Below, piece after piece: positions 33,145 to 43,976 of a stretch of DNA of 64,000 bases. A program made the translations under genes and the position numbers. Source of the DNA: Lutimonas halocynthiae (GTDB taxonomy: Bacteria > Bacteroidota > Bacteroidia > Flavobacteriales > Flavobacteriaceae); contig NZ_JAUFQO010000002.1 in assembly GCF_030409835.1 (NCBI RefSeq), forward strand, positions 1-64,000, given 5' to 3'. A model generated the notes under the pieces. The model did no database searches and was not told the DNA's origin. It worked only from the letters and a program-made list of their open reading frames with translations. Every line of letters starts with the position of its first letter. Within the stretch, counting starts at the first letter, position 1.

Positions 33145-34857
33145 ATGTCCAGTCGATCTAAAATAAAAGTTGCGCTTCAAGACGGGTCAAATATTGCGGT
33201 AATTGGAGGAGGTCCTGCCGGTAGTTTTTTCACTTATTATGCCCTTGAATTTGCCGACAGACTTGATTTAAATATTAACATAGATATTTATGAGGCTAAA
33301 AACTTCACGAGAATAGGAGCTGGGGGTTGTAATCATTGTGGAGGTATCATATCAGAGTCTCTGGTTCAAAAATTATCTACCGACGGTATTATTATTCCTG
33401 CAGAGATTATTCAAAGGGGTATAAATACGTATACGATGCATGTAGAAAAGGGTGATGCTGTGATACAAACACCAAGCAATGAAGACAGGATTGCTTCAGT
33501 ATTTCGTGGATGCGGCCCTAAAGGTTGCCTTGATACTTCTCAACGAAGTTTTGATAATTACTTGCTGGATCTTTGCAGAGAAAAAGGAGTACGGGTTATT
33601 TTAGAAAAAGTTACTGAACTTGAAAGATGTGACGAAGGCATCATTGTAAAATCTAAAAAATTAGAAAATAAGAAATACGATCTTGTAGTTGGGGCTGTTG
33701 GTCTCAACAAAAAGACGCTGAACATGTTTCAGGCAATATCTGAACAGTTCGTTCCACCTCAGGTTACCAGAACTTATATTAGTGAATTTTATTTAGGGCA
33801 GCGTCAGATAGATAAGTATTTTGGGGGCTCAATGCATGTGTTTTTGCTTAACCTGCCCAATATTACTTTTGGTGCCTTGATTCCTAAAAATGACTATGTA
33901 ACGCTGGTATTATTAGGGAAAGATATTAATAAAGAAACTGTCGAAAAGTTTATTACGGCGGAGCAAGTAAAAAAGTGTTTTCCTGAAAATTTCATATTAC
34001 AAGATGCTGCACCTTGCAAGTGTTACCCTTTTATTAATGTTCAAGGAGCCAAACAGCCATTCGATGATAACATTGTATTGATCGGAGATTCTGCGTCTTC
34101 AAAACTTTACAAGAATGGTATTGGAGCCGCTTATATTACGGGGAGAGCAGCGGCAAAAGCTGCCATCTTTGAAGGGATTTCCAAAAATAGTTTTGAAAAA
34201 ATGTATTTGCCAGCATGCAGGAGTCTTGATCGAGATAACCAGATTGGAAAATTGATATTTTTGGTCACAAGGATTATTCAAAGATCTTCTTTATTAAAAA
34301 AAGCAGTTCTTAATGCTGTCTTAAGAGAACAAAAGACAAACAATACTGAAAAATTAATGAGCCTGGCATTGTGGGATACCTTTACCGGAAGTGCTAGTTA
34401 TCGTAATATATTAAAACGTTTTTTTCATCCGGTACTTTTGTTCAATTTGATAAGAGGAGTCTTTTCCAAGCCTTTGAAAACGGCGCATCACCAGCAACAA
34501 GCTAAACATAAAGATTTAGGGCAATTGTATAAAAATGGAGAAGTAATCATTAAACAGGGTACTTCAGGAAATTGTCTTTTCGTAATTCAGGAAGGGAAGG
34601 TAGAGGTGATCAATGAACACAATGGAGAGGATATTAAATTGGCAGAACTGGAAGAAACGGAATTTTTTGGTGAAATGGGTTTGTTTGAAAAAGATGTACG
34701 CTCTTGCACAGTAAGGGCTTTAGGAGATGCCAGGGTGCTCACTATTGATAAAAAAAATTTTTACGAGTCAATTCAAAACGATGCCTCATTGGCCTATAGA
34801 TTGCTTGAAAAAATGTCAAACAGATTACGCGATGCGAATAGGATGATTAATGCTTAA
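33145..34857 (+). CDS. FAD oxidoreductase (geranylgeranyl-reductase-like) fused to a cyclic-nucleotide-binding domain
   Basis: 570 residues. Residues ~16-40 hold NIAVIGGGPAGSFFTYYAL, the FAD fold; GAGGCNHCGG (~57-66) is a C-x-x-C; IVLIGDSASSKLYKNGIGAAY (~310-330) is the second FAD motif of the geranylgeranyl reductase group. After a linker, residues ~455-565 form a CRP-type beta-roll: NGEVIIKQGTSGNCLFVIQEG and the phosphate-binding cassette FFGEMGLFEKDVRSCTVRA with the Gly-Glu and Arg that hold the cyclic phosphate. No DNA-binding helix follows. Reductase activity gated by cAMP is a fair inference; an adenylate cyclase gene lies two genes downstream. Substrate unknown. Confidence 0.85.
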   Translation: MSSRSKIKVALQDGSNIAVIGGGPAGSFFTYYALEFADRLDLNINIDIYEAKNFTRIGAGGCNHCGGIISESLVQKLSTDGIIIPAEIIQRGINTYTMHVEKGDAVIQTPSNEDRIASVFRGCGPKGCLDTSQRSFDNYLLDLCREKGVRVILEKVTELERCDEGIIVKSKKLENKKYDLVVGAVGLNKKTLNMFQAISEQFVPPQVTRTYISEFYLGQRQIDKYFGGSMHVFLLNLPNITFGALIPKNDYVTLVLLGKDINKETVEKFITAEQVKKCFPENFILQDAAPCKCYPFINVQGAKQPFDDNIVLIGDSASSKLYKNGIGAAYITGRAAAKAAIFEGISKNSFEKMYLPACRSLDRDNQIGKLIFLVTRIIQRSSLLKKAVLNAVLREQKTNNTEKLMSLALWDTFTGSASYRNILKRFFHPVLLFNLIRGVFSKPLKTAHHQQQAKHKDLGQLYKNGEVIIKQGTSGNCLFVIQEGKVEVINEHNGEDIKLAELEETEFFGEMGLFEKDVRSCTVRALGDARVLTIDKKNFYESIQNDASLAYRLLEKMSNRLRDANRMINA

Positions 34858-34952
34858 TGGGAATAATATAGAATCAAAAATATAATAGATTTTATCCTTT
34901 GAAAATTATTTATAGACTTTCGGACAATAAAACAGGTGTTTGGTCCTAACTA

Positions 34953-34980
34953 ATAATATTTTACAATGTTAAAATATTAT
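34953..34980. promoter_or_regulatory. AT-rich 11-bp palindrome before the giant protease-like gene
   Basis: ATAATATTTTA and TAAAATATTAT with a 6-base spacer, about 70 bases before the ATG at 35051. It may be an operator or the terminator of the preceding gene (about 95 bases after its stop). Low GC makes chance occurrence possible. Confidence 0.4.
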
Positions 34981-35050
34981 ATTTCATAATCATTTTTAAA
35001 GGTTTTAATGTTTGTGAAATAGCAGGTTTTAATACCTAAACCCCCTAATT

Positions 35051-38000
35051 ATGAAAAAAAATTACTTTTTTACGCAACTTCAAATAGTTTATCATAAGAT
35101 CAAATTCGGATCTCATTATCAAATGATCATTACGTGTCTTGTATTGTTTTGTTTTTCCTTTTCGGGATATGCGCAAAAAGACAAGGCTATTCTCCCTTTG
35201 GTTTGCGTCAAAAAAATGGAAAACGGATTGTACCAGGCAACATTCTCGTACGAGAACCCAACTAAAAAAGAGGTGGTTATTGATGAGAATGGAAGTATCA
35301 TCAAGTCGAATAATGGTAAAAGAGTTGCTAAAGGCCTGAATAAATTCAAACCTGGCGTGAATAAAAAGGCTTTTACAAAAGAATTCGGTGCCGGTGATTT
35401 TATTGTATGGACCATCACCAGCAACGGAAAAACACATGAGGTGGTGGCCAATGTGAATTCGGGCTATTGTGAGCCTGATAAAAATGTTATAGAACCTGTA
35501 ATCGGAAATGGAAAATCATTTGATATTATCGGACAAGAACTGACATCATTATGTGAAGATGTTGCCGGAGAGGCTCCTTCAAATCTTATTTTTCAAATAG
35601 TCGGTGACAAGGTGCTTGTTGAAATAGTGCCAATTTTTAATAAAATGCCTGAAGTAATTGAATTATTACAAGGGCCTCCATTTAATAGGACACCTTCAGA
35701 CTTCCTGTTAAATCTAAATGCCTATAACGGTCTGTCAGCTGTGGATGTTTATATTGAACCGGGAAAATTATTATGCGAACTAAATCTTCATGAGGATATT
35801 ATAAACTTTGCCAGACCGGCATATCCTGCTAAGAATAATACCGGGGGGGTTAAATCTAAGGGAGATGGAGCCCAGACTTCAAATTTGGTGCGTGATTCGT
35901 TCCGCATGAAAAATGCTGATGGAACTTTTGTAACTGTAGACGGGTCTGACATTACTGTTGGTATTTTATCTGATAGTTATAATATGTTTGTCCCGGGAGG
36001 CAATTTAGCTGGTCTTGATATTTCAGCTGGAGAATTACCAGATGATAATGAAGTGGTTGTAGAAGATAGCCGCTTCAAGGCAAGTGATGAAGGAAGAGCT
36101 ATGGCTCAGATAATTCATGACGTGGCGCCTGGAGCCACCCTGAAATTTCATACTGCTACGGCTTCTCCCCGACAATTTGAAGTGGCTTTTGATAAACTGG
36201 CCGCGTATAGTGATATTATCGTAGATGATATTACTTTTATTACAGAACCCTTTTTTGGTGAAGGACGTATTTCTAAAGCAATTCAATCCTTTGTGAATAG
36301 TGCACCTGAGAAATTTCATTTCACTTCAGCAGGAAATTTTGCAAACAAGGGTTATCAAAGTGTTTTTAATCCTACCTCGACGGCACCCGTTACTAATTTT
36401 ATTGACCCCTCATCTACAACTGTGGCGCATGATTTCAATAAAGGTGCGGAAGTTGATTACCTTCAGAAAATCAGCGTAGTAAAAGGTACATATTTAATAG
36501 CTTTGCAATGGCAAGAGCCTGTCGCATCTCAGGATAATAATAATGGAGCCCTTCAAGATCTTGATATATACATCGTTGATGACTTCGGTCGTTTGCTTGT
36601 TGGAAGCAATCGTGTAAATGATGCAGGAGATCCTACAGAGATCATCGTTTTCAGGGCCACGGGATCAGGTGAGGCGAACATTTTAATTACAAACGCGAAC
36701 GGTGCTAATAATCCTAATGTTAATGTGCCCTTCAGGTATATTGCTTTTCGGACAAGTGGTGATGATAATGTGCCGGACGGACTAAAATTTGAAGAGTATT
36801 TTAATGAAGGAATAAACTTTGGAGCACCAACAGTAAGCGGTCATGCCATGACTCCTGAATCTGTTACCGTGGGGGCGGTTGATTATAGATATGCCGACAA
36901 TCCTGTTGCTGAAGGGTTCTCATCCTATGGGGGTCAATTATCTGACAATACTACTGAAGTTAAAATTGACCTTTATGCCCCGGATGGTGGTAACATCGCA
37001 TCCAAATCTGAACCTCGAACTATAGGATTAGGTATAGATGCTCAGTGCGACACTTGTGATAAGGATGGTTTCTTGAATTTTTATGGCACCTCGGCCTCAG
37101 CACCCCATGCGGCGGGAGCAGCGGCATTATTAATGTCAGCGGCAAAATCCTGGTTTCCGGATGGTTTCCCAGCAACGAAGGCTTTAAGTACGTTTAAAGG
37201 AACCGCAACAACTTTTAGTACTCCTGATGGTTCAGGTGGTGCTTTCCTCAATACTTTTGAAGCTTTTAAAAGTATTGCAGCCCCATTACCAAAAATATTG
37301 GGAAAACTAAAATATGATGATGGAGTGACCCCCAGTCAACAGATTTTTGAAGTTTATGTTTATGGAGAATCACTTCCTGTAGACATTAAGAAATTAAAAG
37401 TTTTATTTGACGATAAAGAATTGGAGAATGTTGAATATTTTACAAGGAATGATTCAACTTTTATCTCGGCCACTGTACCTACTTTTTTTGGAAATCCGAA
37501 GTTAGTGATTGTTACAGAAGGGAATACTCCCGGTGGTACTGATGGAGGTGAATCTAACCCGGCCTATTTCTTTGACGACGGTAAAATAGCCTTAAACATT
37601 ATTGCAAACAATGCGACGTTTAAATTTGGACAGGATATCGGACCTTCTTATTACAGGCCCGATAAAACAGACCCAGATTATGTTCCTCCCTTTTTTGTAG
37701 AAGGTCTTCCAGAAGGCGTTACCTACGAGTCACTGGAATTAGAGGATGGTCTTCCACCTGTTGTTTTAAACGATGATGAACTGAACAGATACCTTGGAAA
37801 CGAAGGTAATGGTTATCCAATAGCGGGACTTTATATTATGAAACCCTCTTTTGGAGATGCTGTTTTAAGTGATGTGCAGCAGGAAAAATACCAGATTAAT
37901 TTTATCTCGGGTTATCTCGATGATGAGTTGGGTGAAGTTGGTTATTTGACCATAAATAAAAATGATTTAATTATTAAGCCAAATGTTACTCAGGATTATA

Positions 38001-40717
38001 CCTATGGTGACATCATTGACATTAAAAATAAATATTTATTTGACGACCCGGCAGGAATAAAAAGTCCAGCCGATTTTTACGCTGAAATTGAAGCGGCTCA
38101 TCAAGATGATTTTTATGCTCAAAACACATTGGCCTTAGTCAATAGTTTTAAAGGGCTGGCCAATGGATATGATTATTTAGAACTGTTAAACGGAGGAAGC
38201 TGGATCGCAACTGAAAGAACCATATTTAACAGTTTTAAAGGACTGGCTAATGGAATGGATATTGTAGAATTGGATATCTCTCATTTCACTGATTATATAG
38301 ATGCCAAGGAGGCCCAGGGAGAAACAAACGCATTTAAGGGCCTTGCAAACGCATTTAAGGGCCTTGCAAACGCATTTAAAGGCCTTGCGAATGCTGCGGA
38401 TCTGTTTGATCCTAATGTTGAGGTTTCTTTTGAAAATAGCTTCAAAGGTCTGGCAAATGGCAGTGATCTTGGAGGCGAATCAGATAATAATGATTACTCA
38501 TCGGTATTTGCGATCATTGATGAAACAGATTTTCCTACACAAGAGAACCAGGATGTAGAGATTTCAAGGTTGTATGCCTTGAATCTTATAACAGGATTAG
38601 AGGTCACAAGTGGTACTGATGGTCATTATATTTATCCGGGGGCATTTTTAAATGCCATGGCAGCAAATTTTAATATAACTTATGATTTTGGAGAAATTAC
38701 CATTAAGCCAAAAGATCTTACGGTAAGTATTCCAAACTTCACGATTGAATATGGTGATGCTCTTACAAAAGCGAGACTGTTAGAAGATACCACTGTTTTT
38801 GAAGATTGGGCCTATGGAGAAGATATAGCAACTTATTTTGCTGAAGACGAGCAGCCTTTTGAATTTGTTAAAGATGGTCAACGACCATACAAAATAGGTG
38901 ACCTTAAAGACCTTGGTGAATATGCAATCAAGCTTAAAGCCCTTGATAATTATAATATTGAAACTGTTGGCACTTTAACTATTGCACCTGCTACTTTAAC
39001 CTTTACGGCGGTTTCAGAGACAATTATTTATGGTGAAACTCCTGTAATAGAACCTGAATTTGGCGGGTTTGGTCATGGAGAGTTGAAAGATGTGTTAAAG
39101 GTTAATGGTCAGATACCGTATTATTTCATGAAAGACGGCGCAACATTTACTATGGCGCAGCTAGCAGATATGAATGTTGGAGTTTATGAAATTTTCATTA
39201 AGGATTATCCAAATGATAATTATGTATTTAGCGACACAAAAGTTGTTAGTGACACAAAACTTGGCACTTTAACTATTGCACCTGCTACTTTAACCTTTAC
39301 GGCGGTTTCAGAGACAATTGATTATGGCGAAACTCCTGTAATAGAACCTGAATTTGGCGGGTTTGGTCATGGAGAGTTGAAAGATGTGTTAAAGGTTAAT
39401 GATCAGATACCGTATTATTTCATGAAAGACGGCGCAACATTTACTATGGCGCAGCTAGCAGATATGAATGTTGGAGTTTATGAAATTTTCATTAAGGATT
39501 ATCCAAATGATAATTATGTATTTAACGACACAAAAGTTGTTAGTGACACAAAACTTGGCACTTTAACTATTGCACCTGCTACTTTAACCTTTACGGCGGT
39601 TTCAGAGACAATTGATTATGGCGAAACTCCTGTAATAGAACCTGAATTTGGCGGGTTTGGTCATGGAGAGTTGAAAGATGTGTTAAAGGTTAATGATCAG
39701 ATACCGTATTATTTCATGAAAGACGGCGCAACATTTACTATGGCGCAGCTAGCAGACATGAATGTTGGAGTTTATGAAATTTTCATTAAGGATTATCCAA
39801 ATGATAATTATGTATTTAGCGACACAAAAGTTGTTAGTGACACAAAAATTGGCACTTTAACCATTAATAAGGCTACACTTTCTATAACCATAACTCCGGA
39901 AAAATTGATTATTAACCAAGGTGACATTCCGGACATTACAGCTTCATTTGATGGGTTTGGTCATGGAGAGTCTGAAGATGTTTTGAAAGTTAATGGTCAA
40001 ATACCGTATTATTACCTGAATGGTAACACAATGTATTATTCTACTGATGTACCAGGAGCCTATACAGTGCAAATTACAGCTCCAACTAATTATACAATGG
40101 TATATAGTAATGAGGCCACCTTGCTTATAAATTCAATCGATAACGTAAGAAAAGTACGTACATTTTCAGATTGTGTTAAATATAATGGTCCAGAAGATTA
40201 TACCGTAATATTCCGCTATGAAAATGATAATGACGAAGTTGTATATGTAGCAGTTGGATCGGATAATGAATTAGCTGGAGGCGTTTTGGATGATGGAAGG
40301 CCGCCTGCTTTCTTTATGCCTGGAGGTGGAACTTTTGAAATTCGTTTTAATGGTCAACAATTAACATGGAGTCTTACAACCTTCGGTAGCACTAATAAAT
40401 CTTCAGTTTCATCTGCAAATCAGAGTGATACTGGTGAATGTGGTGCAAAAATAGATGGAGCGTCATATACACTTACACTTTATCCTAATCCGGTTACAGA
40501 TGGTAATTTGACCATTGAACAAAGTATGCCTGAAATTAGTACTGTTTATATATTAGACATGTATGGAAGGGTTTTATACACTGATTATGGTTTTGATGGA
40601 ATTACTAATACGGTAGACATTGATATGTCTGACGGAAATCTTTATCCAAGTGCAATGTATGTTGTAAGAATAGTAAGCCAAGATCAGGTGAGAACCTATA
40701 ACATTATAAAACAATAA
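35051..40717 (+). CDS. giant T9SS-secreted subtilase-fold protein with FKGLAN and MBG repeats
   Basis: 1888 residues. Signal peptide ends near residue 42 (FSGYAQ); a second start at 35123 is possible. Residues ~300-700 form a subtilase-like domain: Asp308 in VGILSDSYN, Glu347 in DEGRAMAQII followed by HDVAPGA where S8 enzymes have His-Gly-Thr, oxyanion Asn429 in TSAGNFAN, and Ser681 in YGTSASAPHAAG. Residues 1033-1136 contain six FKGLAN motifs. MBG (YGX-type) domains fill ~1200-1690, with three almost identical 98-residue units at 1307-1600. The end (LYPNPVTDGNLTI to YNIIKQ) is a type A sorting domain. Probably a long surface fibre with a protease-like head; activity is not certain because of the Glu. 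Confidence 0.88.
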   Translation: MKKNYFFTQLQIVYHKIKFGSHYQMIITCLVLFCFSFSGYAQKDKAILPLVCVKKMENGLYQATFSYENPTKKEVVIDENGSIIKSNNGKRVAKGLNKFKPGVNKKAFTKEFGAGDFIVWTITSNGKTHEVVANVNSGYCEPDKNVIEPVIGNGKSFDIIGQELTSLCEDVAGEAPSNLIFQIVGDKVLVEIVPIFNKMPEVIELLQGPPFNRTPSDFLLNLNAYNGLSAVDVYIEPGKLLCELNLHEDIINFARPAYPAKNNTGGVKSKGDGAQTSNLVRDSFRMKNADGTFVTVDGSDITVGILSDSYNMFVPGGNLAGLDISAGELPDDNEVVVEDSRFKASDEGRAMAQIIHDVAPGATLKFHTATASPRQFEVAFDKLAAYSDIIVDDITFITEPFFGEGRISKAIQSFVNSAPEKFHFTSAGNFANKGYQSVFNPTSTAPVTNFIDPSSTTVAHDFNKGAEVDYLQKISVVKGTYLIALQWQEPVASQDNNNGALQDLDIYIVDDFGRLLVGSNRVNDAGDPTEIIVFRATGSGEANILITNANGANNPNVNVPFRYIAFRTSGDDNVPDGLKFEEYFNEGINFGAPTVSGHAMTPESVTVGAVDYRYADNPVAEGFSSYGGQLSDNTTEVKIDLYAPDGGNIASKSEPRTIGLGIDAQCDTCDKDGFLNFYGTSASAPHAAGAAALLMSAAKSWFPDGFPATKALSTFKGTATTFSTPDGSGGAFLNTFEAFKSIAAPLPKILGKLKYDDGVTPSQQIFEVYVYGESLPVDIKKLKVLFDDKELENVEYFTRNDSTFISATVPTFFGNPKLVIVTEGNTPGGTDGGESNPAYFFDDGKIALNIIANNATFKFGQDIGPSYYRPDKTDPDYVPPFFVEGLPEGVTYESLELEDGLPPVVLNDDELNRYLGNEGNGYPIAGLYIMKPSFGDAVLSDVQQEKYQINFISGYLDDELGEVGYLTINKNDLIIKPNVTQDYTYGDIIDIKNKYLFDDPAGIKSPADFYAEIEAAHQDDFYAQNTLALVNSFKGLANGYDYLELLNGGSWIATERTIFNSFKGLANGMDIVELDISHFTDYIDAKEAQGETNAFKGLANAFKGLANAFKGLANAADLFDPNVEVSFENSFKGLANGSDLGGESDNNDYSSVFAIIDETDFPTQENQDVEISRLYALNLITGLEVTSGTDGHYIYPGAFLNAMAANFNITYDFGEITIKPKDLTVSIPNFTIEYGDALTKARLLEDTTVFEDWAYGEDIATYFAEDEQPFEFVKDGQRPYKIGDLKDLGEYAIKLKALDNYNIETVGTLTIAPATLTFTAVSETIIYGETPVIEPEFGGFGHGELKDVLKVNGQIPYYFMKDGATFTMAQLADMNVGVYEIFIKDYPNDNYVFSDTKVVSDTKLGTLTIAPATLTFTAVSETIDYGETPVIEPEFGGFGHGELKDVLKVNDQIPYYFMKDGATFTMAQLADMNVGVYEIFIKDYPNDNYVFNDTKVVSDTKLGTLTIAPATLTFTAVSETIDYGETPVIEPEFGGFGHGELKDVLKVNDQIPYYFMKDGATFTMAQLADMNVGVYEIFIKDYPNDNYVFSDTKVVSDTKIGTLTINKATLSITITPEKLIINQGDIPDITASFDGFGHGESEDVLKVNGQIPYYYLNGNTMYYSTDVPGAYTVQITAPTNYTMVYSNEATLLINSIDNVRKVRTFSDCVKYNGPEDYTVIFRYENDNDEVVYVAVGSDNELAGGVLDDGRPPAFFMPGGGTFEIRFNGQQLTWSLTTFGSTNKSSVSSANQSDTGECGAKIDGASYTLTLYPNPVTDGNLTIEQSMPEISTVYILDMYGRVLYTDYGFDGITNTVDIDMSDGNLYPSAMYVVRIVSQDQVRTYNIIKQ
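38147..38458 (+). repeat. six FKGLAN motifs, three in 21-bp tandem
   Basis: FKGLAN occurs six times between residues 1033 and 1136 of the giant protein, usually as N-S/A-FKGLAN-G/A. Three copies are directly joined as a 21-bp tandem repeat (38327-38389) with unit AACGCATTTAAGGGCCTTGC plus A; the other three use different codons and are spaced by 25-40 residues. Confidence 0.95.
38969..39850 (+). repeat. three tandem 294-bp MBG-domain repeats
   Basis: Units begin at 38969, 39263 and 39557, each starting GGCACTTTAACTATTGCACC, with a period of exactly 294 bp (98 codons). Differences are only a few bases (for example Ile/Asp before YGETP, Gly/Asp in KVNGQ, Ser/Asn in VFSDT). A fourth, diverged unit follows from 39851. 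The near identity implies recent duplication or ongoing gene conversion. Confidence 0.97.
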
Positions 40718-40726
40718 GAATTATAA

Positions 40727-42685
40727 ATGATCATAAATCATAAAGTATCTTTTGCTGCTGTTTGCCTGTTTTTATTGGCATGCTTGCCAGGTTTCTCACA
40801 AAACGTCAAAATAGACAGCTTAAAAGGCATTGTTGAAACAGGAGCAAAAGATACTGCCATGGTAAATACACTGAATGATTTAAGTGTATTGTTGAGACGG
40901 AATCAAGATGAAGAGGAGGCTATTGAAACCGCGTCCAAAGCTTTGGAACTGGCTACCTCGCTGAATTTTAAGAAAGGAATGGGATATGCCTTAAAGAATT
41001 CAGGTTTGGTATACTATAACAGGGGAGATTATTTGGAGGCCCTTGATGATTGGACAAAATCTCTGGAAATTTTTGAATCGGTGCCCGATACTTTAGGCAT
41101 GGCGAATATTATTAATAATTTGGGAACACTGTATTTTCAGGCAGGAAGCCTTCCCAAGGCACTCGATAATTATTTAAGATCCTTAGGCTTTGCTGAAAAA
41201 GCAAAAGACACCTTTCAAATGACAACAGTTCTATATGGTATTGGGGCTATTTATGGTGAACTTAGGGAATATGACAAGTCTCTGGAATATTTCAATCAGA
41301 TGGGGCGTTATACAGAGAACCTTAACAATAATCAGCTTAGAACTTATTATTTAATGGGATTAGGTGAGGTTTATATGAAAAAAGGAGATTATGAAATGTC
41401 CTTAAAATATTATAAAGAAGCTCTCCCTCTGAACGATGACACACCTGAATATACTCATAATTTGACCATGTTGGGTACTGTTGAACAAAAAATCGGAGAT
41501 ATTGATAAATCGATAGAATATTTGAACTTGGCATATGAATCTGCTAAGGAAAACAAACAACAATGGGAGACAGTACAAACCTTAATACCTTTAGGGAAAT
41601 TATATCAGGATAGTGATTTTTCTAAAGCCATAAATATTTATAAAGAGGCTGAGTCAGTAAGTAAACAAATGGAAACTGACAAATCTCTGGTAGATATTTA
41701 CAAGGGAATGTCTGAAACTTATGCAATTCACGGTCATTTCGATAAAGCTTATCAATACCAGGAATTATATGAAGCCGAGAAAGATTCCTTATTCAATTTA
41801 GAAACTGACGATAAAATAAGAGGCCTTCAATTTGATTTTGATCTTTCTAAAAAAGAAGATGAAATAGGACTGTTAGAAAAAGAGGCAGAAATTCAGGAAT
41901 TTAAAGAAAGAAGACAGAAAAATATGCTCTTTGCTACGGGTATAGCTTTGTTTTTAATTGTTTTACTGGCCATAAGTTTATATAGAAGATATAAATTTAC
42001 TCGGGAAACCAATTTAATCATTGAAAAAGAAAAGGACCGTTCCGAAAAACTGTTGTTAAATATTCTTCCCGAGGAAACCGCCCAGGAATTAAAGGAATTT
42101 GGGAAAGTTAAAGCCAAGCGTTTTGATTCGGTTACTGTACTGTTTACTGATTTTGTTGGTTTTACGGCCTATGCCCAAAACCTTGAGCCTGAAGAACTAG
42201 TGAGTAGCGTTGATTATTATTTTTCTAAGTTTGATGAGATCATGGAGAAGTATGATGTGGAAAAAATAAAAACGATTGGGGATGCCTATATGTGTGTGTC
42301 AGGTTTGCCAGAGCCTGGAGAAAACGATGTTTTTAGAGCTGTGCAGGCCGCTTTTGAGATTGTCGAATTTATCGAAGCGTCAAAGAAAACGAAAATGACT
42401 GACCTTACGCAATTTGATATCAGAATTGGGATCAATACCGGTCCTATTGTTGCTGGTGTTGTAGGGACCAAAAAATTCGCATATGATATTTGGGGTGATA
42501 CCGTAAATGTAGCATCACGAATGGAGTCAAAATCAAAACCTGGTAAAATTAATATCTCTGAAAGTACTTATGAGCTGATCAAAGACCAATACGATTGTGA
42601 ATTTCGTGGCGAGATCGACGTCAAGAACAAAGGGATGATGAAAATGTTTTTTGTGAATACTAAGAAGACGGATCATTTATCTTAA
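40727..42685 (+). CDS. TPR-containing membrane adenylate cyclase (class III)
   Basis: 652 residues. A signal peptide (to about residue 25) and about eight TPR units (for example KGMGYALKNSGLVYYNRGDY) make a periplasmic sensor; one membrane helix lies near 402-422, then a cytoplasmic coiled coil and the class III catalytic domain (~460-648). Metal-binding Asp475 (FTDFVGF) and Asp519 (IGDAYM), base-recognising Lys515 and Asp587 (YDIWGD), and Asn594/Arg598 (NVASRM) are all present. The Lys/Asp pair predicts ATP as substrate. Starts 9 bases after the giant protein gene, so probably one transcript; the TPRs may sense that protein or its export. Confidence 0.93.
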   Translation: MIINHKVSFAAVCLFLLACLPGFSQNVKIDSLKGIVETGAKDTAMVNTLNDLSVLLRRNQDEEEAIETASKALELATSLNFKKGMGYALKNSGLVYYNRGDYLEALDDWTKSLEIFESVPDTLGMANIINNLGTLYFQAGSLPKALDNYLRSLGFAEKAKDTFQMTTVLYGIGAIYGELREYDKSLEYFNQMGRYTENLNNNQLRTYYLMGLGEVYMKKGDYEMSLKYYKEALPLNDDTPEYTHNLTMLGTVEQKIGDIDKSIEYLNLAYESAKENKQQWETVQTLIPLGKLYQDSDFSKAINIYKEAESVSKQMETDKSLVDIYKGMSETYAIHGHFDKAYQYQELYEAEKDSLFNLETDDKIRGLQFDFDLSKKEDEIGLLEKEAEIQEFKERRQKNMLFATGIALFLIVLLAISLYRRYKFTRETNLIIEKEKDRSEKLLLNILPEETAQELKEFGKVKAKRFDSVTVLFTDFVGFTAYAQNLEPEELVSSVDYYFSKFDEIMEKYDVEKIKTIGDAYMCVSGLPEPGENDVFRAVQAAFEIVEFIEASKKTKMTDLTQFDIRIGINTGPIVAGVVGTKKFAYDIWGDTVNVASRMESKSKPGKINISESTYELIKDQYDCEFRGEIDVKNKGMMKMFFVNTKKTDHLS

Positions 42686-42791
42686 AATAAATCGATAACT
42701 TTTCCCGTTACTATAGAAGACCTAATAAAATCATTGAGACACTAATTGAAAAAGTCCGATTATTTATTTAGATCAATATAAAATTTAAATT

Positions 42792-43394
42792 ATGCGTGGT
42801 TACAATAAACTGAGAAAGAAATCCTGGGATTTGTTGCACTCTGAGCTGCCTGTAGAACTTCATTATCACAGCATTCGTCATACAAAAAGTGCCCTTAAAA
42901 ATTGTGAGGAATATATTAGGTATTTCGATATTGACAGCTATCAGGCAAAATTATTGAGAATAAGTATTTTATTGCATGATATTGGTTTTACAGTTTCTGT
43001 AGATGATCATGAGTTGGAAGGAGCAAAGATTGCCAACGAATTGATGACAGAGTTTGACTTTACCAAAAGTGATATAAAGGTGGTTACCCAGCTTATTCTG
43101 GCTACCAAATTACCACAAAAGCCTAAAAATTTATTGGAGCGCATTATTTGTGATGTCGATCTTGATTATTTAGGTAGAAAGGATTTTTATGAGATAAGTG
43201 ATTTGCTATATCAGGAATTACTCGAAAAGTCTGAGTTTTTTGATAAAACCCAGTGGAACAGGATCCAAATAGATTTTTTAGAGAACCATACTTACCATAC
43301 CGAATTCGCAAAAAAAAGAAGGCAAGGATTGAAAGAACAGCGCATAGCAGAATTAAAACACAAGGTTTCCTTTAAGGGTAGAAAAGCAGTTTGA
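42792..43394 (+). CDS. HD-domain phosphohydrolase
   Basis: 200 residues. HYHSIRHT (His26, His30), LLHDIGF (His62-Asp63), DDHELEGA (His73-Glu74) and DVDLDYLG give an HD-superfamily metal site in normal order. The pattern resembles HD proteins next to, or fused to, class III cyclases. Hydrolysis of a cyclic or other phosphoester is likely. It follows the cyclase gene by 106 bases in the same direction, so it is a candidate cAMP phosphodiesterase, though this is inference. The tail is basic (KRRQGLKEQR). Confidence 0.85.
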   Translation: MRGYNKLRKKSWDLLHSELPVELHYHSIRHTKSALKNCEEYIRYFDIDSYQAKLLRISILLHDIGFTVSVDDHELEGAKIANELMTEFDFTKSDIKVVTQLILATKLPQKPKNLLERIICDVDLDYLGRKDFYEISDLLYQELLEKSEFFDKTQWNRIQIDFLENHTYHTEFAKKRRQGLKEQRIAELKHKVSFKGRKAV

Positions 43395-43526
43395 CGGCAA
43401 GTTATATGATATTGGTCACTAAAATGATCGTTAGAATAACTTAAATTTATAATGGTAAAAACTTTTTAGCTCTAACGGAGTTAATAATTTTCACAATCCT
43501 TGTTTAAGCCTTAAAATAATGCTGGG

Positions 43527-43976
43527 ATGAAATCACTCGAAAACAACAATAGTTCTGAACCGGTTTACACACTTGCTGTGGCTTCAAAATTGTCCTTTAC
43601 ACCCGCCCATTCCATCCGGCAATATATTGACAAAGGATTGATCATTCCCTTTAAAACAGAAACGAACCGACATTTGTTTTCTGAGGTAGATATACTCAGG
43701 TTAAAATGTATCAGAAATTATTTACATGATCAGGGTCTGAATGTTGCGGGCATCAATGCCTTGTTTTCAATTATTCCATGTTGGATCATTAGATCATGTG
43801 ACATGGAAGATCGGTTACAATGCGATGCATATACTTCCATTAAAAGCCCTTGTTGGACAGCCTCCAACAAAGGTTTGTTGTGTCGTAATACCGATTGCCG
43901 TACATGTGAAGTGTATAAACTACCTGAAAAATGCTCAGGCCCGAAGCAATTTATCAAAGAAATTACAAATACTTGA
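43527..43976 (+). CDS. MerR-like regulator with Cys-rich C-terminus
   Basis: 149 residues. The N-terminal winged helix is MerR-like: VYTLAVASKLSFTPAHSIRQYI, KGLIIPFKT, NRHLFSEVDILRL. Instead of the usual coiled coil, the C-terminal ~70 residues carry eight cysteines (PCW, SCD, QCD, PCW, LCR, DCR, TCE, KCS), enough for an iron-sulfur or zinc centre. A redox or metal signal is thus likely. Last gene of the same-strand run, 132 bases after the HD gene. Confidence 0.8.
   Translation: MKSLENNNSSEPVYTLAVASKLSFTPAHSIRQYIDKGLIIPFKTETNRHLFSEVDILRLKCIRNYLHDQGLNVAGINALFSIIPCWIIRSCDMEDRLQCDAYTSIKSPCWTASNKGLLCRNTDCRTCEVYKLPEKCSGPKQFIKEITNT

Follow-up and report, generated by a model that had tools for sequence, protein, structure and literature searches.

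Five genes on the forward strand of a 64,000-nucleotide stretch of the Lutimonas halocynthiae genome (the whole stretch is referred to as the window below) raise the question of whether they form a cyclic AMP (cAMP) circuit built around a giant secreted protein and, if so, what the cyclase of such a circuit senses. The first-pass annotation of this sequence had proposed that the cyclase makes the signal, an HD protein removes it and an oxidoreductase reads it, with the TPR part of the cyclase sensing the giant protein or its export. All five open reading frames are present on one strand as it had described, and its domain calls were confirmed by Pfam and NCBIfam in all five cases:

33145..34857, forward strand: FAD oxidoreductase with a cyclic-nucleotide-binding (cNMP) domain, geranylgeranyl-reductase-like, 570 aa (Pfam, NCBIfam)
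35051..40717, forward strand: giant secreted protein with signal region, S8/subtilisin-like fold, MBG domains and T9SS type A tail, 1888 aa
40727..42685, forward strand: TPR-membrane class III adenylate cyclase (the sensor), 652 aa
42792..43394, forward strand: HD-domain phosphohydrolase with the H...HD...H...D metal set intact, 200 aa
43527..43976, forward strand: MerR-type regulator with 9 Cys (MerR_1), 149 aa

The intergenic gaps along this run are 193, 9, 106 and 132 bp (5' to 3'), and promoter and terminator scans gave signal no higher than shuffled sequences; a separate promoter may lie within the 193-bp gap between the FAD oxidoreductase and the giant. The five-gene neighbourhood does exist elsewhere but is limited to the genus, i.e., the order FAD-giant-cyclase-HD-MerR was found only in the window, in genome G025 and in Lutimonas saemankumensis (L040). 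The FAD gene lies upstream of the giant in this genus, and no FAD-cNMP protein was found among 395 other Bacteroidota. The MerR gene is likewise confined to the genus in the family sample, and its linkage to the module is weak; most of its nine Cys are in the C-terminal half, and it is possibly a metal or Fe-S binder. The five-gene set is best explained, at about even confidence, as a lineage-specific elaboration of a module that is widespread in Bacteroidota. In the plasmid collection searched, the giant gave partial, weak matches only.

The giant combines a Peptidase_S8 domain, MBG_2 domains and a T9SS type A sorting tail (Pfam, NCBIfam), the latter scoring 34.7 bits with TIGR04183 against a cut-off of 23, as expected for type IX cargo. 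Its S8 domain was modelled as a confident subtilisin-like fold (AlphaFold, pLDDT 86.8), and the nearest solved folds are the Csp proteases and pseudoproteases of Clostridia (CspC-CspA, CspB), with which it shares 12-16% identity; the giant differs from these in being a secreted T9SS protein. Ser681 and Asn429 are invariant. The activity of the domain is likely altered or lost, judging from its sequence, because an invariant DEGRAM, overlooked previously, occupies the place expected for the S8 His motif and because G025 has Asn in place of the putative catalytic Asp of LSDSY. Further downstream, the MBG region carries a recent expansion:

38967..39865, forward strand: MBG tandem unit, 3.1 copies of a 294-bp unit, 98% identical

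The sensor consists of a signal peptide, a periplasmic TPR region (residues ~28-376), a transmembrane segment (399-423) and a cyclase domain (461-644), which is the layout of periplasmic TPR sensors such as FimS; the topology was assigned by the positive-inside rule from the basic residues following the transmembrane segment. The cyclase domain matches Guanylate_cyc (Pfam, E 1e-60), and the solved relatives of the C-terminal part are class III cyclases. It carries the class III adenylate cyclase site (FTDF, KIKTIGD with K515, and D587IWGDTVNVASR), including the metal-Asp and N-x-x-x-R motifs, and the Lys515/Asp587 ATP-type site of the first-pass annotation is thus in place; based on these residues, the protein is predicted to make cAMP.

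To what extent, then, are the giant and the sensor linked outside the window? Within a family sample of 120 genomes besides the window, the giant was present in seven, with a TPR cyclase adjoining it in 7/7 and an HD gene in 5/7. A scan of named genomes returned 80 loci with a giant, from Flavobacteriaceae, Cyclobacteriaceae, Chitinophagaceae, Saprospiraceae, Lewinella relatives, Draconibacterium and others, and a TPR sensor lay at most 1.13 kb from the giant in 70 of the 76 loci with a visible neighbour. The two genes are mostly on the same strand and 3-300 bp apart (3-31 bp in close relatives of the window). Two further pairs are G056 (1.64 kb, with HD and PycTM genes in between) and L075 (a split giant), while no sensor was in view at the remaining four of the 76 (L052, L055, L057, L088); these repeat-bearing giants may be second copies with a distant sensor. 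Loci fetched later showed the pair in 9/9. Chance neighbourhood, for which it could be said that the genome has 11 cyclase-domain matches and some random adjacency is possible, is already refuted for this pair and has a vanishingly small probability, since adjacency of ~92% over several families of the phylum compares with a chance expectation of well under a few percent. The pair is thus conserved as a linked unit, in line with the original proposal. Further, S8-fold relatives without repeats had a TPR sensor neighbour in 0/8 cases in a separate phylum-wide sample; that is, the pairing belongs to the repeat-bearing protein.

The output domain of the giant-linked sensor is mostly a cyclase, and a histidine kinase in Algoriphagus, Aquiflexum, Adhaeribacter, Ilyomonas and others. 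We built an HMM from the TPR region only, trained on giant-linked cyclases, and giant-linked histidine kinases scored 296-426 bits with it vs. at most 192 bits for unlinked kinases. The other cyclases of the window genome scored 83-252 bits, the top truly unlinked sensor 252 bits, and two sensors recorded as not linked, at 384-438 bits, turned out to have a giant 4-5 kb away. In a phylogeny of 84 TPR domains, the detail of which is limited by long branches among unlinked rows, giant linkage changes twice and the output domain ten times, and therefore it is the TPR part that is tied to the giant. In Adhaeribacter (L058:14507-17934), the gene after the giant-linked kinase codes for a protein that joins a receiver-like N-terminus to a cyclase domain, and thus a phosphorelay may lead to cyclase output there.

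The part of the giant that the TPR region could be matched to was unmentioned by the first-pass annotation, namely a short peptide repeated within an MBG-like domain, both in tandem and scattered:

38147..38458, forward strand: FKGLAN repeats, six copies in the MBG-like domain
38147-38164, 38234-38251 and 38333-38350, forward strand: FKGLAN copies 1-3
38354-38371, 38375-38392 and 38441-38458, forward strand: FKGLAN copies 4-6

Where the region is readable, almost all giants have such a peptide-bearing insert in the MBG-like domain, and each has its own peptide of 6-8 residues, in about 5-68 copies and with a species-specific sequence: FKGLAN (window), KFQAVVS, KFRAVVN, KFKAIVS, NGQALGII, GIPLVN, GTALVN, AAALVN, ARALVN, GRTIIN, NGKQAV and others. 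Usually, two variable residues come first, followed by a small residue, a pair of hydrophobic residues and a final Asn. Copies occur in tandem and also singly, at conserved places of the MBG-like domain. The synonymous identity of exact peptide copies was 0.41 vs. 0.36 expected (18,132 codon comparisons), i.e., near random, and therefore selection at the protein level keeps the peptides the same; recent gene conversion at the DNA level was rejected as the source of identical copies on the same grounds. Codon similarity was no greater between orthologous copies than between non-orthologous ones. Among close relatives, seven aligned copies change in concert. For instance, two Aestuariibaculum species with S8 domains 87% identical have FRAVVN in 6/7 copies (L034) vs. 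FQALVS in 7/7 (L035), so that three motif positions differ in essentially all copies. At L034, one copy retains Gln vs. Arg in six, and the Arg codons are several and differing; hence, point changes look likelier than conversion.

It is conceivable that these repeats are structural or self-associating (stacked strands, a fibre or an adhesive surface) and that the sensor answers general export stress. The hexapeptide periodicity seen in many species (GIPLVN, GTALVN) and the identity of the copies, which suits self-packing, would agree with this, as would the prediction of some copies as strands (AlphaFold), but many copies are single and scattered amid unique sequence, and such a role would not be expected to produce the covariation with TPR residues described below. 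We consider this alternative quite unlikely. The repeat domain was modelled with a mean pLDDT of 69.7, with values below 50 in the majority of repeats, and this AlphaFold model matched no known fold; the low confidence counts against the ligand reading proposed below.

On the sensor side, two positions of the TPR region covary with the last residue of the peptide across relatives:

41105..41107, forward strand: TPR residue N127
41216..41218, forward strand: TPR position 164 (Gln here, Arg in most relatives)

N127 and R164 were both intact in 56/58 loci with an Asn/Asp-ending peptide vs. 0/6 with a Ser/Arg-ending one (p 4e-7; the trait was chosen post hoc and the Ser/Arg side consists of six sequences). 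For position 164 alone, Arg was found in 56 of the 58 former loci and a residue other than Arg in 5 of the 6 latter ones (64 loci). Of the 1107 columns scored for association with the final residue of the motif, R164 comes out on top and N127 next; in 400 random tip sets matched for clade composition, no column did as well. Both positions had already been noted among those conserved in linked, not unlinked, sensors. The trait switches five times on the S8 tree, where each of the six Ser/Arg-type sequences has lost R164, N127 or both; five pairs are too few to reach 0.05 by a sign test. A pair of loci, L035 and L041, share FQALVS, while their S8 and cyclase domains each group with other partners; the columns exclusive to the two number 13/350 in the TPR region (clustered in one helix), 0/138 in the cyclase and 5/564 in the S8 domain. 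Loci added later retested the Asn side only, with 7/8 in agreement (L152 has Gln), and an out-of-sample search returned no more Ser/Arg-type motifs with a sensor. The exceptions are the window itself, where a motif that is of the Asn type and otherwise odd (Ala at position 5) goes with Gln 164 and Gly 171, L152 and L065. Whole-domain partial Mantel tests of motif vs. TPR gave p 0.02 in an 11-row subset and p 0.002 in 1/4 full settings, and such tests mostly fail to separate the TPR from the S8 domain. N127 and R164 sit in consecutive TPR helices, and from this we infer that they line the concave TPR groove.

The idea that the TPR part senses the giant gains support from this covariation. Since each species has its own peptide, with a matching sensor nearly always encoded next door, the peptide is probably what the sensor detects. 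Specifically, we propose, with roughly balanced confidence, that the short repeated peptide of the exported giant serves as ligand for a periplasmic TPR receptor that is dedicated to it and is encoded by the gene that follows. The alternative that the giant is an output, with the TPR cyclase or kinase sensing another periplasmic signal and controlling production or export of its co-regulated neighbour, draws on the fact that sensors often adjoin what they regulate and on the example of Porphyromonas gingivalis FimS, a periplasmic-TPR kinase that controls fimbriae and whose signal is unknown (PMC11053733). The pairing, however, tracks the peptide repeats rather than the S8 fold, the TPR type stays locked to the giant while outputs swap, and peptide and TPR residues covary; hence, we regard the output alternative as unlikely but not negligible.

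The downstream side of the circuit can be followed through the neighbours of the pair. In the FAD protein of the window, a GG-reductase-like FAD domain is followed by a cNMP_binding domain (residues 462-545, 4e-22) with a CRP-like FGEMGLFEKDVRSCTV phosphate-binding cassette and matches to the domains of CRP and PKA/PKG. The cassette (FGEMGLF...RS) is that of CRP/PKA-type domains, which are fused to a DNA-binding or kinase-regulatory domain and not, as here, to an FAD oxidoreductase. In Draconibacterium (L066), FAD and cNMP are separate genes downstream of the cyclase in a closely packed giant-cyclase-FAD-cNMP-HD order, and a Bacteroidetes MAG (L049) has giant-cyclase-cNMP-HD. That is, the readers around the same cyclase-HD pair differ, being FAD-cNMP, a lone cNMP protein or PycTM. 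In 26 loci, the HD protein is encoded close to the giant-cyclase pair. Its HD match in the window (E 3e-4) is just under the cut-off, with orthologs over it, and its metal ligands (H26, H30, H62-D63, H73, D121) are invariant in 13 relatives and make up the expected metal site; no solved relative was found by sequence. Cyclase-HD (L128, and similarly L135) and HD-PycTM fusions tie the HD domain to cyclic nucleotides and suggest that the protein cleaves cAMP, although it may hydrolyse another substrate. The window genome has a second HD copy at C16, in a cluster that also includes three TPR cyclases and PycTM; there (L112, 708000-727000), the cyclases lie beside secreted or lipoprotein genes of 165-182 aa without a Pfam match, the products of which may be ligands of the neighbouring cyclases. 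In L121 and L123, an HD domain of this family is fused behind a TPR region of ~500 residues, which is a different protein class. Collectively, the recurring neighbours and fusions provide good evidence for a cyclic-nucleotide circuit, with cAMP no more than a candidate substrate of HD. The cAMP circuit originally proposed is supported insofar as HD and a cyclic-nucleotide receptor recur by the cyclase, also in fusions, but is not supported in its original form, with the full gene set and MerR limited to the genus and a histidine kinase as output in some lineages.

The PycTM neighbours raise the possibility of Pycsar-type anti-phage defence (PycC with PycTM or PycTIR), in which a cyclic nucleotide made upon infection, cCMP or cUMP in Pycsar, acts by opening PycTM or by switching on an effector. 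The cyclase is matched by PycC models of PADLOC (1.8e-14), PycTM models match neighbours in some loci, and both systems have a class III cyclase, but the PycC match reflects the shared catalytic fold only and the window module has neither a PycTM nor a PycTIR effector, PADLOC TIR-effector matches of the FAD protein spanning its cNMP domain only. Unlike Pycsar, the window has a TPR-membrane cyclase, a cNMP-FAD reader, a giant partner and no sign of a defence context, and periplasmic TPR sensing and a T9SS giant are ill-suited to intracellular phage sensing. We consider a defence role very improbable.

Under the peptide-ligand hypothesis, the giant would cross the inner membrane, meet the TPR domain in the periplasm and exit via the type IX system. 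Its repeats would sit in the TPR groove during passage or when export backs up, and this would alter how active the cytoplasmic class III cyclase is, reporting the presence of the giant; activation and inhibition are both possible. The cAMP made by the cyclase would be read by the cNMP domain of the FAD oxidoreductase, gating its redox reaction, while the HD protein would remove or otherwise tune the signal. In other lineages, the same TPR part would drive a histidine kinase, and the signal would be read by PycTM, a membrane protein, or by a stand-alone cNMP protein. The circuit would thus act as an export or self-peptide sensor.

Elements of this model resemble known systems. FimS shares the periplasmic TPR region between two transmembrane segments and the cytoplasmic output, and the FimS model matches the TPR part of the window cyclase (E 5e-25), at a score far below the equivalog cut-off. 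The residues reported as critical for FimS include N180 and N228, and a polypeptide that binds to the TPR motifs is put forward as its ligand (PMC11053733). FimS differs in that neither an identified ligand nor a repeat-bearing giant partner is described for it there, as well as in output, which is a cyclase in the window. The RRNPP receptors (Rap, PlcR, PrgX, NprR) read short extended peptides in a TPR groove with a key Asn anchor (PMC3601992), a likeness that we treat as analogy and not homology: these are cytoplasmic proteins of Firmicutes that bind imported free peptides, whereas the window receptor is periplasmic and membrane-bound, with the TPR part before the transmembrane segment, and the peptide comes in multiple copies inside an exported giant; it is thus not an RRNPP member. 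Among open-licence papers, none was found that describes the giant-sensor pair, or that joins MBG domain, adenylate cyclase and Bacteroidetes, or PycTM with an HD domain. As far as checked, the parts are of known kinds and the pairing of a giant and a sensor through a private repeated peptide is undescribed, and the replacement of scattered short-peptide copies together, without recent DNA homogenisation, is a pattern absent from the literature searched.

Finally, it is tempting to suggest, at somewhat below even confidence, that a multi-copy peptide, a cognate TPR receptor with exchangeable output, residue-by-residue co-evolution and a private species signal make up a new class of envelope signalling. 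It is with the same tentativeness, a little short of an even chance, that we read the peptide copies as being replaced in concert as the receptor changes, in a role of export sensing or self recognition. Sensors with a periplasmic TPR region abound in Bacteroidota, and FimS, whose signal is reported as unknown, is one of them; our results offer a concrete ligand candidate for one large subfamily of these sensors, together with the TPR residues predicted to set its specificity, and a Bacteroidota cyclic-nucleotide circuit for which a candidate stimulus, maker, remover and reader can be named.
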